From positions 1 to 51,856 of the forward strand of contig JADFOP010000011.1 of NCBI GenBank assembly GCA_022562795.1: a stretch of DNA of 51,856 nt. The letters are read 5' to 3'. Below are positions 1,211 through 42,896 of this stretch, piece after piece. Position numbers and translations under genes: made by a program. This stretch comes from Nitrospinota bacterium. Lineage in GTDB: Bacteria; JADFOP01. The notes beneath the pieces were generated by a model. The model had not been told where the DNA came from. It did not search any database and saw nothing but the letters and a program-made list of their open reading frames with translations. Each line of letters opens with the position of its first letter. Within the stretch, counting starts at the first letter, position 1.

Positions 1211-1510
1211 TTAGTCGAGATCCAGCTTATCCAGACGGGATAGGATTTTCTCCACCTTCTTGCCGATGGTTTTCCGCTCGCGCTGGAGCCGACGGGCCTC
1301 CGATTGGATTTCGGTCTGACGCTGTTGCAGTTCCACGGCCTTCCCCTCGGCCCCCTTGAATCGCTTGATCTCGGCCTGCTGGGCCTTAAGGCTCGCCTCC
1401 ATCTCTTCGAGGCGCTCCATGAGGGTCGCCCTTTCGGTCGCCAGGGCCGTAAGGCGCTCGGCCGCCTCTCTGACCCGGATCTCCAGCTTCTCTAGGGTCT
1501 TAGTGCTCAT
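1211..1510 (-). CDS. ZapB-like coiled-coil protein
   Basis: This 99-residue protein is almost entirely predicted coiled coil: heptads of Leu with Glu, Lys and Arg run from residue 4 to about 95, with no membrane segment and no Cys. Its position directly before zapA and its length match the ZapB-like small coiled-coil proteins that link the Z-ring via ZapA. Sequence similarity in coiled coils is weak evidence, so the assignment rests mainly on context. The gene starts at ATG and is separated from pheT by 92 bases, so it may be expressed with pheST or from its own promoter. Confidence 0.6.
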   Translation of the reverse strand: MSTKTLEKLEIRVREAAERLTALATERATLMERLEEMEASLKAQQAEIKRFKGAEGKAVELQQRQTEIQSEARRLQRERKTIGKKVEKILSRLDKLDLD

Positions 1511-1602
1511 ACGGCTCCGTCCATCCTGAACGTGACTTGTGGTCTTTCTATATCACCTCGCCTGGAAGCCTGTCAAGGCACGGGCCCGCCGGGTAGCGGG
1601 CC

Positions 1603-3687
1603 TCAGGTCCTAAGCGAGGCCCCGAGGGCTACTTCAAGCCGGGCGATGACTTCGGCGTGGACCTCGGCGGCCTCTTCGTCGGTCAGCGTGCGGTCGGCCG
1701 CCCGGTAGGTCAGACTGAAAGCGAGGCTCTTCTTGCCCTCCTCGATTGGCTCGCCCGTGTAAACGTCGAAGAGGTTGGAGGCTTCGAGCAACGGGCCTCC
1801 CGCTTCCCGAATGACCTCCTCGACCGACGCCGCCGAGGTCTCTTCGCCCACCACGACGGCGAGGTCCCGGAGGATGGCCGGGAAGCGGGGTAGGGGGCTG
1901 AAGTCGACCGACGGCCTCTGGGCGGCCCGAAGGGCCTCTGCGTCGAGCTCGAAGGCAACAACAGCCTCCGGAAGGTTGAAGGCCTTGACGACGGCGGGGT
2001 GAATCTCCCCCACCACCCCGAGGGAGGCCCCGCCGCTGACGGGTGTGGCCGCCCGCAGGGGGTGGAAGGTCGGGTGGTCGGTGGGCTGCCAATGCTCGAG
2101 GGGCACGCGGAGGGCCTCGCAGAGGGTCTCCACCACCCCCTTTACGTCGAAGAAATCCGGCGGATCCGCCGCCTCACTCCACAGGTGCTCCTCCAGGGAG
2201 CCCATTAGAACGCCAGACACCCGCCCACGCTCCTCAGCCCCCGTATCTCCGGAGCCTGGGAAGAAGGCCTGGGAGAGTTCAAAGACGCGGTAGCTCTCGA
2301 CCCGACGGCTGGCGTTCAGGGCGCATCCCCTAAGGAGGCTCGGTAGCAGGGTGGTACGCATTACGGCCATCTCCGCACTCAGCGGATTCTGTAGGGGGAT
2401 TGACCGGCCAAGGGGATGGTCCTCGCCGAGCCTGCAGCAGGCCAGGTCATCTGCGCTTATGAAGCTGTAGTTGATAGCCTCGGAGAGCCCGCAGCCGGCC
2501 AGGGTATCCCGAACCTGGCTGGCCCACCCCAAAGTGGGCGTATGGGCCATGCCCACCGAACTACTTGCTGGCAGGGTGGATGGGAGCCGCTCGTAGCCGT
2601 GGAGGCGTGCAACCTCCTCCATGAGGTCCACCTCCCGCTCCAGGTCTCCCCGGTGTGAGGGGATTTGGAACGACAGCCGCTCGTCGTCCTCGGAGCCGAC
2701 CAGCTCAAGCCCGAGGCGGCGACAGTACCCGGCGATGGCTTCTCCTGTAAGCTCGACGCCGAGGACCTCGTTGGTCCGCGAGACCCGAAGGGTGACCGTA
2801 GGCCGCTCGATGACCTTTGGGTAGGCGTCGATAACGCCTGCAGCCACCGTCCCTCCGCTTACTTCTGCGATGAGCGCCGCAGCCCTAGCGCTGGCCGTTA
2901 AGACCGCATCGGGGTCCACGCCCCGCTCGAAGCGGTGGGAGCTTTCGGTGTGAAGCTTGAGGCGTTTGGCGCACCGTCGGATGGTCACCGGATCGAAGTA
3001 GGCGCTTTCGAGCAACACCGTGCGGGTGGCCTCAGAGACCTCAGTAGCCCGCCCTCCCATAACCCCGGCCACGGCCACCGGGCGGGCGGCGTCGGCGATT
3101 ACCAGCATGGTGGGCTCCAGTGCTGGCTCCTCCTCGTCTATGGTCTCAATGGTCTCGCCCGGACGGGCTCGTCGCACGATTATTCGGCCCTCAGCGAGGG
3201 TGTCGTAGTCAAAGGCATGGAGGGGTTGGCCCCACTCCATGAGGACGAAGTTCGTCACATCGACCACGTTGTTGATGGGCCTGAGACCCACTGCTGTGAG
3301 GGCCTGCTGGAGCCACGGGGGCGAGGGGCCGATGGCGACGTCCCGGATGATGCGGCCCACGTATCGGGGGCATGCATCGGGGTCTTCGATGTCGATGCTG
3401 GTGAAGGTATCTACGGCGGGCGGAGCTTCGGCAGAGAGGATGTCGGGCAGGGTCAGAGGAGCGCCGGTGATGGCTGAGACCTCGCGGGCGACACCTATGT
3501 GCGAGAGACAGTCGGGCCGGTTGGGAGTGAGGTCGATGTCTAGTATCACATCCGGAGGCTCGGAGCCCTGGCTTGAGTGTTCTATGCCCCCGACTTCGAT
3601 GCCGACCATGGTGAGGGCATCGGCCAGCTCCTCGGGCTCTAGCTCCACATCCACGTACCGGAGCAACCAGGATAGGCTGACCTTCAT
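1603..3687 (-). CDS. pheT: Phenylalanine--tRNA ligase beta subunit, short form without EMAP-like domain
   Basis: This is the beta subunit of the (alpha-beta)2 enzyme that charges tRNA-Phe with phenylalanine. The start MKVSLSWLLRYV, the B1 segment DLTPNRPDCLS, the B3/B4 editing core (residues about 110-290), the B5 segment, the catalytic-like module and the C-terminal FDX-ACB domain (about 600-694) are all present. The protein is 694 residues against about 795 in E. coli. The roughly 105 missing residues are the N-terminal OB-fold (EMAP-like) tRNA-binding domain: sequence passes from VGIEVGGIE to LDIDLTPNR with only a short linker. The gene starts 8 bases after pheS ends. The deletion is clean and in frame, so the protein is probably functional. 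Confidence 0.95.
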   Translation of the reverse strand: MKVSLSWLLRYVDVELEPEELADALTMVGIEVGGIEHSSQGSEPPDVILDIDLTPNRPDCLSHIGVAREVSAITGAPLTLPDILSAEAPPAVDTFTSIDIEDPDACPRYVGRIIRDVAIGPSPPWLQQALTAVGLRPINNVVDVTNFVLMEWGQPLHAFDYDTLAEGRIIVRRARPGETIETIDEEEPALEPTMLVIADAARPVAVAGVMGGRATEVSEATRTVLLESAYFDPVTIRRCAKRLKLHTESSHRFERGVDPDAVLTASARAAALIAEVSGGTVAAGVIDAYPKVIERPTVTLRVSRTNEVLGVELTGEAIAGYCRRLGLELVGSEDDERLSFQIPSHRGDLEREVDLMEEVARLHGYERLPSTLPASSSVGMAHTPTLGWASQVRDTLAGCGLSEAINYSFISADDLACCRLGEDHPLGRSIPLQNPLSAEMAVMRTTLLPSLLRGCALNASRRVESYRVFELSQAFFPGSGDTGAEERGRVSGVLMGSLEEHLWSEAADPPDFFDVKGVVETLCEALRVPLEHWQPTDHPTFHPLRAATPVSGGASLGVVGEIHPAVVKAFNLPEAVVAFELDAEALRAAQRPSVDFSPLPRFPAILRDLAVVVGEETSAASVEEVIREAGGPLLEASNLFDVYTGEPIEEGKKSLAFSLTYRAADRTLTDEEAAEVHAEVIARLEVALGASLRT

Positions 3688-15258: not shown

Positions 15259-16512
15259 ATGCCCCCTCCGGCAATCATTCTCCTCATTGCTGCGGCTGCC
15301 GGCCTTTACATGGCCTGGAACATCGGGGCCAACGATTTAGCCAACGCAATGGGGACCTCCGTGGGGTCGGGCGCCTTAACCTTAAAGCAGGCCGTGATCA
15401 TCGCGGCGGTCTTCGAGTTGGCCGGGGCGGTTCTCGTCGGCTCCCACGTGACCGAGACCGTCCGAAAAGGCATGGTGGACCCGGCCGTCTTCGCGCCCAA
15501 CCCCAACCTCATTCTCTGGGGCATGACCTCGGCCCTGCTGGCAGCTGCCATCTGGCTTCAGGTGGCCACAGCCCTCGGTATGCCGGTCTCCACCACCCAC
15601 TCCATTGTGGGGGCGGTCGTTGGCTTCGGTCTGGTTGGCGGCGGTTTGGGGGCCATCCGGTGGGCCAAGATCGGCCTGATTGCCGCTAGCTGGATCTTCT
15701 CGCCCCTCGTGGGTGGGGCCATCGCATTCGGCCTCTTCGTCTTCATCCGCCGCCGGATCCTCGAGGCGCCCGACCCATTGGCTTCGGCCAACCTATACGC
15801 GCCATGGTTCGTCTTCGTGGTGGTCTTCATCCTGGTCTTATCCTTCATCTACAAGGGTCTCAAGAATCTCCATCTCGATTTCCCCCTGCCCCAGGCGATG
15901 GGGATTGCCGCGGCCGTAGGGCTGGCCTGCACCTTCATCGGGCGCCGCTTCATCTCGCGCGCAGTTTTGCCCCCGGCCGGCGCCGACGGCCGCCCGACGC
16001 AGTCGGTCGAGGGGGTATTTCGCTTCCTTCAAATCGTGACCGCCGGATACGTGGCTTTCGCTCATGGCTCCAACGACACGGCCAACGCCATCGGGCCGCT
16101 TGCGGCAATCTTAGGGGTCTTACGCCACGAGCCTTTGGGTGCGCAGGTTGAGGTCCCCACCTGGGTTCTCCTTCTCGGCGGGATGGGCATCGTTCTTGGC
16201 CTGGCGACCTATGGCTACAAGGTCATCGAAACCATCGGCAAGAAGATCACCCACCTCACCCACGCCAGCGGCTTTGCGGCCCAGTTTGCAGCCGCAACGA
16301 CCATTCTCGTCGGCTCCAAGCTCAGCCTGCCTCTCTCTACAACCCATACCATTGTGGGGGCCGTTGTCGGCGTAGGGTTGGCCCGAGGTATCGCCGCTCT
16401 AAATCTCCGTATGCTTCGTAATATCGCAAACTCCTGGCTCATCACCCTCCCCTTCACAGCGGTCCTTACCATAATCTTGTATAAGCTCGCGCTCCTGATC
16501 ACCGGGGGATGA
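15259..16512 (+). CDS. PiT-family inorganic phosphate transporter
   Basis: This 417-residue inner membrane protein has about ten to twelve helices. Both PiT signature repeats are present: NIGANDLANAMGTSVGSGAL near residue 22 and AHGSNDTANAIGPLAAI near residue 272, each followed later by the STTH motif (MPVSTTHS and LPLSTTHT). The inverted-repeat halves are the mark of PiT symporters, which move metal-phosphate with H+ or Na+. Length is normal and the partner DUF47 gene lies immediately upstream. Confidence 0.95.
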   Translation: MPPPAIILLIAAAAGLYMAWNIGANDLANAMGTSVGSGALTLKQAVIIAAVFELAGAVLVGSHVTETVRKGMVDPAVFAPNPNLILWGMTSALLAAAIWLQVATALGMPVSTTHSIVGAVVGFGLVGGGLGAIRWAKIGLIAASWIFSPLVGGAIAFGLFVFIRRRILEAPDPLASANLYAPWFVFVVVFILVLSFIYKGLKNLHLDFPLPQAMGIAAAVGLACTFIGRRFISRAVLPPAGADGRPTQSVEGVFRFLQIVTAGYVAFAHGSNDTANAIGPLAAILGVLRHEPLGAQVEVPTWVLLLGGMGIVLGLATYGYKVIETIGKKITHLTHASGFAAQFAAATTILVGSKLSLPLSTTHTIVGAVVGVGLARGIAALNLRMLRNIANSWLITLPFTAVLTIILYKLALLITGG

Positions 16513-40790: not shown

Positions 40791-40819
40791 TTGACATGAG
40801 GCAACCGCCCGCCTACTTT
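40791..40819 (+). promoter_or_regulatory. Putative sigma-70 promoter of the M48-selenoprotein operon
   Basis: TTGACA (40791-40796), 17 bases, TACTTT (40814-40819). The -35 is perfect. Confidence 0.5.
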
Positions 40820-40878
40820 TGTTGTCTAACGAAGGGATGAATGATATGAGCCAGATGGATTTGAAGAGGGGAGGTCGA

Positions 40879-42345
40879 ATGCGCCGCGTTTTTCACTGGG
40901 TCGGGCTGGCTGCGGCCGGGCTCCTGGTGGCTGGCTGTGTCACCAATCCGGTCTCCCAAGAGCGGGAGTTCACGCTGGTGACCGAGTCCCAGGAGATCGA
41001 GATCGGCCGGGCGGCCCACGGGGAGATTCTCAAGCAGTTCGGCCAACATCCTGATTCGAGCCTGGAGAAGTACGTAGCCGGAGTGGGAGTGAAAATTGCA
41101 TCGGTCAGCCACAGAAAGCACCTGCCGTATCGGTTCACCGTGCTCGATAGCCCCATCTTAAACGCCTTCGCCCTGCCGGGGGGCGGCATATACGTGACCC
41201 GAGGGCTGCTGGCCGCTCTTAACAGCGAGGCGGAGCTGGCGGCGGTCCTCGGCCATGAGGTCGGCCACGTCACGGCCCGCCACGGCGCCCAGGCCGCCAC
41301 GCGGATCACGGGATACCAGCTCTTGAGCGGCCTGCTGGGTGCCCTGGACACCCGGCTAGCGAAATTGAAGCCCATAAGCGACGCAACGGCGGGTCTCATC
41401 TTCTTAAAGTACGGGCGTGAGGCCGAATATGAGGCCGACCAGATCGGAGCCAGGTATACCTACGATGCCGGTTACGACCCTCGATGGCTCGGGGCCTTCC
41501 TCCGAAGCCTCGCCGCCCAGGAAAAGGGTCGGGATGTGCCGCCGGAGTTTCTCTCGACCCACCCATCGACCCCCAATCGTATCGCTCAAGTCGACGCGCT
41601 GGCTGCTGAGCTCACCGCCTCAGGCACAAGACGGCTGGAGGTAGGCTCCAGCCCCTATAAGCAGCGCCTGGAGGGGCTCATCTACGGACCGGGGCCTCTT
41701 GGCTGGGTCTGGTCGGGAAGGCGGCTGGCCAACCAGGCTCACCGAATCTCCCTCAAGCCCCCCAAGGGGTGGGATGTAAAGACCGAGCGGCTCGCCTTCT
41801 CCATCCAGCACCGCCGCCTCAAAGGCGTAACGGCGGAGTGGCGCGTCCACGAGAAGGTGTCGACATTGCGGGTGGGCCGCTTCGCCGAGAAGATCGAGAA
41901 GCGCCTCAAGCTGGAAGGTGGGAAACGGTCGCCCTTTCGCCTAGGGCCGCTCGAAGGTATTAAGGCAATCTACTTCGGCCGCAGCCAGGGCACTGATGCG
42001 GCCCTCATCATCTACTACGCTATAGACGGGCGGGCCGGGTACACTTTATCGGCCATCGCCCCGGTGGAATTCCGGGACAAGATCGAGCCTGTCTACGACG
42101 TGCTGGCCCGCTCCCTGCTGAAACTGAGGGCCGAAGAGGCCAACGCCCTGCCCATCCAGCGGGTCCATCTCGAGCGGGTGCGTTCCGGCGAGGGGCTTGC
42201 TAAGCTTGTCCGGCGGGTCTATGGTAACTCTGATCACGTGGAGGCCATCGCCCTCCTGAACGGAGTGTCGCCTGAGGCCACCCTCACCGACGGGAGCCTC
42301 ATCAAAGTCGTCCTCCCTTCACCTACCATCAGGAGGTCCGAATGA
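40879..42345 (+). CDS. M48-family zinc metalloprotease lipoprotein
   Basis: From the ATG at 40879 (GGGGAGGT just upstream) the 488-residue protein has a lipoprotein signal ending LLVAGC (Cys20) and the zinc motif HEVGH (126-130) with a later EYEADQIG that supplies the third ligand. This is the BepA/LoiP type of periplasmic protease that clears misfolded outer-membrane proteins. A C-terminal extension (about 290-488) has an alpha/beta domain and a LysM-like segment (LVRRVYGNSDHVEAIALLNG). The stop overlaps the start of a selenocysteine thioredoxin gene (ATGA), so the two are co-translated. Upstream ATGs at 40837 and 40846 are weaker. Confidence 0.9.
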   Translation: MRRVFHWVGLAAAGLLVAGCVTNPVSQEREFTLVTESQEIEIGRAAHGEILKQFGQHPDSSLEKYVAGVGVKIASVSHRKHLPYRFTVLDSPILNAFALPGGGIYVTRGLLAALNSEAELAAVLGHEVGHVTARHGAQAATRITGYQLLSGLLGALDTRLAKLKPISDATAGLIFLKYGREAEYEADQIGARYTYDAGYDPRWLGAFLRSLAAQEKGRDVPPEFLSTHPSTPNRIAQVDALAAELTASGTRRLEVGSSPYKQRLEGLIYGPGPLGWVWSGRRLANQAHRISLKPPKGWDVKTERLAFSIQHRRLKGVTAEWRVHEKVSTLRVGRFAEKIEKRLKLEGGKRSPFRLGPLEGIKAIYFGRSQGTDAALIIYYAIDGRAGYTLSAIAPVEFRDKIEPVYDVLARSLLKLRAEEANALPIQRVHLERVRSGEGLAKLVRRVYGNSDHVEAIALLNGVSPEATLTDGSLIKVVLPSPTIRRSE

Positions 42346-42896
42346 AGGAGAGCTACAATAGGGCGGTGATAGCAGTCTTGGCGACGATGGGCCTTTTTCT
42401 CGTTCTCAATAGCCCGGCGGCGCCTGTGGGCGTCGAGACGCTCCAGCAGCTGGGTTTATCGCCCGTCCGGGGCATTGTCTTGGCGCCGGACTTCGTTCTG
42501 CCGACTCTCAACGGCGGCGATATGAGTCTGGTCGAGCACCGAGGCAAAGTCGTTATACTTAACTTCTGGACGACCTGGTGACCGTGGTGCCTCAGGGAGC
42601 GGGCCGCTCTCCAAGAACTCCACGAACTCTACGACGGTCGGGGCCTCGTGCTGCTCGCCATCTCTATGGATCGACCGGGCCGATCGGTGGTGGAGCCTTA
42701 CAAGAAGCGTAACCGCCTCACCTTCCCTCACCTTTTGGACGACCGTCTTGAGGTGAGCCGAACCTATGGGGTGCGGGCCACGCCGATGACCCTCATCGTA
42801 AACAAGCAGGGGCACGTAGTCGCCCGCGTCATCGGGGCCAGGCCCTGGGCAGACCCTGAATTTCAGCGACTTTTCGAGGAATTGATTGACGAGTAG
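42342..42896 (+). CDS. Thioredoxin-like (TlpA/ResA-type) selenoprotein, Sec at codon 80
   Basis: Read straight through, the frame stops at TGA 42579-42581, but the same frame continues for 105 codons with full thioredoxin homology. With TGA read as selenocysteine the product has 184 residues: a signal anchor (about 7-28), APDFVLPTLNGG, then VVILNFWTTW-U-P-W-C (Sec80, Cys83), then RATPMTLIVNKQGHVVARVIG with the cis-Pro of the fold, and an acidic end. In TlpA/ResA proteins this site is WCxxC, so Sec falls exactly on the nucleophilic Cys. A hairpin fitting the bacterial SECIS model starts one base after the TGA. I infer a periplasmic disulfide reductase or peroxidase-like enzyme. A stop mutation in a dying gene is less likely given the intact downstream fold. 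Confidence 0.85.
42579..42624 (+). promoter_or_regulatory. Bacterial SECIS element
   Basis: After the TGA (42579-42581) a lower stem CGTGG/CCACG (42583-42587 with 42620-42624) and an upper stem GGGAGCG/CGCTCTC (42595-42601 with 42605-42611, one G-U pair) enclose a GGC loop. The loop starts 20 bases after the TGA and has G in its first two positions, as the bacterial SECIS consensus requires for SelB binding. Confidence 0.75.

Follow-up and report, generated by a model that had tools for sequence, protein, structure and literature searches.

Results

The window analysed here (the whole stretch of 51,856 nucleotides) carries an M48 metallopeptidase gene followed by a TlpA/ResA-type oxidoreductase gene with an in-frame TGA codon (Table 1). 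The start of the second gene overlaps the stop of the first in an ATGA, and this overlap together with the AGGAGG motif makes ATG 42342 a well supported start. With the TGA translated as a residue, U becomes residue 80 in the context LNFWTTWUPWCLRER.

Table 1. Features at the proposed selenoprotein locus, in window positions.
Feature	Position	Strand	Remarks
M48 metallopeptidase gene, lipoprotein-like N-terminus	40819..42345	+	Pfam Peptidase_M48 6.9e-36
Shine-Dalgarno AGGAGG, strong	42331..42336	+	5 nt 5' of ATG
TlpA/ResA-type thiol:disulfide oxidoreductase gene, TGA read as Sec	42342..42896	+	184 aa, stop TAG 42894-42896
N-terminal signal anchor, residues 2-22	42345..42407	+	predicted helix, hydrophobic, without lipobox
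In-frame TGA (Sec80), first catalytic Cys of WCxxC	42579..42581	+	aligned codon is Cys in paralogues L011, L013 and L039, TGA at 14 further loci
Cys83, resolving Cys of UxxC	42588..42590	+	nearly invariant in alignment
SECIS-like hairpin gggagcg-GGC-cgcucuc	42595..42611	+	stem of 7 bp, loop of 3 nt with G first, -8.5 kcal/mol
Pro148, cis-Pro of thioredoxin fold (ATPMT)	42783..42785	+	invariant in 19-sequence alignment

The composition of the frame is alike on both sides of the TGA, with GC contents at the three codon positions of 0.61/0.41/0.75 upstream and 0.70/0.41/0.74 downstream. Openness of the frame alone means little, because 32 frames in this GC-rich window run across a TGA with at least 60 amino acids on each side. 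What lies above chance, and carries the weight, is the homology on both sides of the TGA and its location exactly at the catalytic residue; the window has one instance of the pattern FW-xx-WU-xx-C-xx-E, against none in 100 shuffled versions. Frame translation and homologue alignment thus agree with the first-pass annotation, which had placed the TGA at the nucleophilic cysteine (W-U-P-W-C).

A Pfam AhpC-TSA match (8.6e-25) extends over residues 48-161 and crosses the TGA, bearing out the earlier claim that the thioredoxin fold runs on to the ATPMT segment. Besides the cis-proline, the conserved glutamate after CxxC (E86) is invariant in the 19-sequence alignment. The same annotation had expected ordinary gene calling to split the gene, and table-11 ORF calling does return an 82-aa ORF at 42648-42896. 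Taken at face value, this output would mean two genes, the first for a short membrane peptide that stops at the TGA, the second for a protein starting from GTG 42648. Such an arrangement is already contradicted by homology, as the thioredoxin domain is unbroken through the TGA and the second ORF would have neither the active site nor the active-site helix of the fold; it has practically no chance of being correct.

By E-value the best curated model is ResA PRK03147 (4.1e-26), with a score of 91.9 bits against a curated cut-off of 170; for TlpA NF047696 the score is 49.3 of 230 bits. Judged from these scores, the product is to be classed as ResA/TlpA-like, neither ResA nor TlpA proper. The closest solved structure by sequence is 3kcm from Geobacter metallireducens (2.1e-27), and both printed alignments to solved thioredoxin-family proteins show a cysteine at position 80. 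An AlphaFold model (mean pLDDT 86.7) has a single N-terminal helix and a ResA/TlpA fold, its best fold matches being 3kcm (TM 0.94 of target), 3hdc and ResA (1st9, 2h1b), with TlpA (1jfu, 4txo) also among them. The hallmarks of TlpA/ResA-like oxidoreductases are present, namely a thioredoxin fold with WUxxC in place of WCxxC, the cis-proline and the glutamate after CxxC, and the helical, hydrophobic residues 2-22 are the predicted counterpart of their export signal or anchor. By homology the product is probably an exported thiol:disulfide oxidoreductase.

Sec and Cys relatives in other genomes

The DNA pattern FWxxWUxxCxxE was searched in 386 genomes (the window's own, those of its two relatives and further genomes of the domain) and was found at 15 sites in 13 genomes, that is, at 14 sites in 12 of 385 genomes beyond our own. 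The reversed pattern gave no site in the same search. Each of the 14 other sites falls within a frame encoding a protein of approximately 160-220 amino acids that has a hydrophobic N-terminal stretch and a full TlpA domain. SelA scored above the cut-off in 11 of these 12 genomes versus 20 of 42 pattern-negative genomes picked by hand from the same list (Fisher one-sided p = 0.006). At codon 80, for which a homologue check had been proposed, some homologues have Cys and others Sec, and the frames continue through; a phylum-wide search found no TGA orthologue at this codon in the two phylum relatives. A tree built from the Sec and Cys forms has low resolution; it shows five label changes, and a single origin may still hold. 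In one bacterial family two genomes have two Sec-TlpA paralogues each (L102 and L103 in G363, L104 and L105 in G096), and four of the five Sec-TlpA of that family (L103-L106, with L106 from G234) have in common a different SECIS-like hairpin, whose loop lies at +26. In the IMG/VR viral collection the pattern matched 12 times, never in a TlpA frame, and these matches were discarded as chance hits.

The hairpin downstream of the TGA

The window hairpin spans 13-29 nt downstream of the TGA, its loop lying 20 nt after that codon. Published bSECIS criteria comprise a loop of 3-9 nt with a G in its first two positions, a stem of 4-16 bp, a distance of 16-37 nt from the TGA and an energy of at most -7.5 kcal/mol (PMC13188914). 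The window hairpin agrees with all four, as do 8% of the TGAs in the window; agreement is likewise seen at 10 of the 15 Sec TlpA sites (the window and 9 of the 14 others) and in the SelD gene of the same genome. Taken alone, the window hairpin is unexceptional (MFE fold z -0.10; synonymous resampling p = 0.064), and the signal emerges only in the comparison across loci. Against synonymous-codon resampling, hairpins at +14 to +23 are stronger at the Sec sites (combined z 4.9, and 5.0 over the 12 rows left after near-copies among the closely related rows had been dropped), whereas 13 Cys homologues show no enrichment (z -1.8; Sec versus Cys, Mann-Whitney p = 0.007). A GUU loop in the same position is common to several different stems. 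Rfam SECIS_1 (RF00031) gave no match at the window and is uninformative here, as it also found nothing in any control genome.

These comparisons bear on the question of whether the TGA is a sequencing or assembly error, or a strain variant, in an ordinary Cys TlpA. A single base separates TGC or TGT from TGA, and the genome is a fragmented draft with one chimeric junction elsewhere. However, with TGC at Cys80 the gene would offer 53 single-base routes to a stop, 12 of them to TGA, and only one would put TGA at Cys80. Moreover, the same codon is TGA at the 14 other loci, SelA being detected in 11 of their 12 genomes, and a SECIS-like hairpin follows it here. We therefore regard an error or variant as very unlikely.

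Selenocysteine machinery in the genome and phylum

The assembly (2.15 Mb, 84 contigs, 97.1% complete) is probably metagenome-assembled. It contains an intact tRNA-Sec gene (selC, UCA anticodon, 77.6 bits) and SelD (313.8 bits), which is itself a selenoprotein with a TGA-encoded active site (GGUACK); its frame keeps this in-frame TGA and stays open for 231 aa to the contig end. SelD is split over two contig ends. Its N-terminal part ends contig C27 (L054, 1-693), and at L063 (G000:C45, 16036-17041) the C-terminal third of SelD follows in frame on a PAS/histidine-kinase N-terminus, a junction that is probably an assembly chimera. Since SelD is broken in this way, poor assembly near the sel genes is plausible.

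Of the sel genes that the first-pass annotation had wanted checked, selC and selD are thus present, while selA and selB were not found in this incomplete assembly and stand adjacent to each other in each of the phylum's two other genomes. At the scpA locus, syntenic to the scpA locus of one relative (G001) that carries selAB, other genes are found, which makes a real loss of selA and selB in this lineage conceivable. The TlpA gene could then be a decaying relic whose UGA now acts as a stop and which yields a 79-residue fragment only. Absence of both genes from a 97.1%-complete assembly and the occupied scpA locus speak for such a relic. Against it stand the intact tRNA-Sec, a SelD that retains its in-frame TGA and long open frame, and a TlpA frame that is free of other lesions and similar in codon-position GC on both sides of the TGA; in addition, the broken and chimeric contig ends at SelD point to a faulty assembly around the sel genes. 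Altogether, a relic appears unlikely.

Several further observations were made in these genomes. In the window's own genome, a segment made up of the tRNA-Sec 3' half and the flank downstream of it (L037, G000:C37, 1708-1797) recurs 14 kb further on at about 15750-15811; between the copies lies a urease and urea-transporter island, with no integrase seen, which looks as if it had been inserted at selC. In the relative G002, two selenoprotein candidates lie close together (L041, G002:C119, 1360-2016 on the plus and 769-1080 on the minus strand), one of them Prx-like with the motif KWUTYC, the other a small exported MerP-like protein with GCVUPGT, which also has a SECIS-like hairpin. G001, of the same genus as the window, has a Prx-like candidate with HWUPFC (L014, G001:C333, about 1381-1974, minus strand). 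It also has a TlpA-like gene with WAPPA, in which both active-site cysteines are replaced by alanine (L010, G001:C760, 1348-2034, minus strand), between an lgt-like gene and a DegQ-like protease gene.

Discussion

Our analysis indicates, with a probability of roughly 0.88, that the gene is a selenoprotein gene in which UGA codon 80 is decoded as selenocysteine. The computed basis comprises the frame, the homology, the position of the TGA, tRNA-Sec, a Sec-containing SelD, the SECIS-like hairpin and the recurrence of this arrangement in other genomes that encode Sec. Because of tRNA-Sec and SelD, the WUxxC TlpA frames in SelA genomes and a hairpin enrichment at Sec sites only, selenocysteine is very probably by far the best reading of codon 80; actual insertion we infer. 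The first-pass view of a TlpA/ResA-type protein with Sec replacing the nucleophilic cysteine is accordingly upheld by homology, fold and the Sec machinery of genome and phylum.

In the scenario that we propose, UGA codon 80 would be decoded by tRNA-Sec and SelB, aided by the downstream hairpin. After export, the N-terminal helix would anchor the product in the inner membrane, and the thioredoxin domain would lie on the side away from the cytoplasm. There Sec80 would attack disulfides of exported proteins, or their copper-site or sulfenylated cysteines, and Cys83 would resolve the mixed selenenylsulfide. A CcdA/DsbD-type membrane partner would re-reduce the enzyme, and its substrates, by analogy to ResA and TlpA, might be apocytochrome c or oxidase copper sites. 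Redox direction, electron donor and substrates are parts of this scenario that we infer. Genes named CcdA-like from their sequence adjoin paralogues in the window's own genome and in G002 as well as one Sec-TlpA (L094), and another Sec-TlpA (L102) adjoins a frame reading as cytochrome oxidase subunit I; the most likely general role would therefore be that of a reductase in cytochrome c or oxidase copper-site maturation.

The tie to the M48 protease that had been suggested for this gene does not extend to its relatives. No M48 gene is found near the other Sec-TlpA at any of the 14 loci, within flanks of mostly about 2.5 kb, and M48 as a conserved partner is rejected on the evidence of these flanks. 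The neighbour is BepA-like at most. A functional link is thinkable because BepA of E. coli assists in the assembly of LptD, whose maturation involves disulfide rearrangement (PMC8423444). That Sec-TlpA and the overlapping M48 protease form a dedicated redox-proteolysis quality-control unit, not described before, is an unlikely idea; if it were true, the protease would chaperone or degrade outer-membrane proteins whose disulfides the selenoenzyme rearranges or reduces.

The results show Sec use in an obscure phylum represented here by three genomes and add fourteen more Sec-TlpA loci, at which standard table-11 ORF calling truncates the gene at the TGA. The gene calls are thereby corrected, and support is given to the view that many lineages keep the catalytic cysteine of TlpA-type proteins as Sec; no new class of protein or mechanism is opened. 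The novelty claimed in the first-pass annotation does not stand, as TlpA-family UxxC selenoproteins are already on record. Table 1 of PMC13188914 lists a ‘Thiol-disulfide isomerase-like protein, cd02966, UxxC’, a ‘Prx-like thiol:disulfide oxidoreductase, PF00578, UxxC’ and a ‘UGC-containing TlpA disulfide reductase family protein, cd02966’; TlpA-family UxxC proteins are also among the selenoproteins of PMC9312934, and ocean metagenome data contain 321 ‘Trx-like 1’ (COG0526) and 225 ‘Prx-like 1’ (PF00578) UxxC sequences (PMC2398784). As to the supposedly new signal-anchored form, the predicted anchor is there, but being signal-anchored or exported is the norm among the relatives found.

Compared by description, the window protein has the domain family, the UxxC motif and the Sec position in common with the known TlpA-family UxxC selenoproteins (cd02966, PF00578, COG0526). 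A ResA-like WAxxUGC selenoprotein (NCBIfam NF041054) likewise combines the TlpA/ResA fold with an active-site Sec, but its motif is UGC and not UxxC, its model is longer (354 positions), and the window protein, at 62 bits, is far below its 300-bit cut-off. With the Cys forms of ResA (PRK03147) and TlpA the fold is common, the first cysteine of these standing where the window protein has Sec. The kind of protein is already known from many bacteria; what is particular to the window gene, and added here, is its phylum and its locus with the M48 neighbour.
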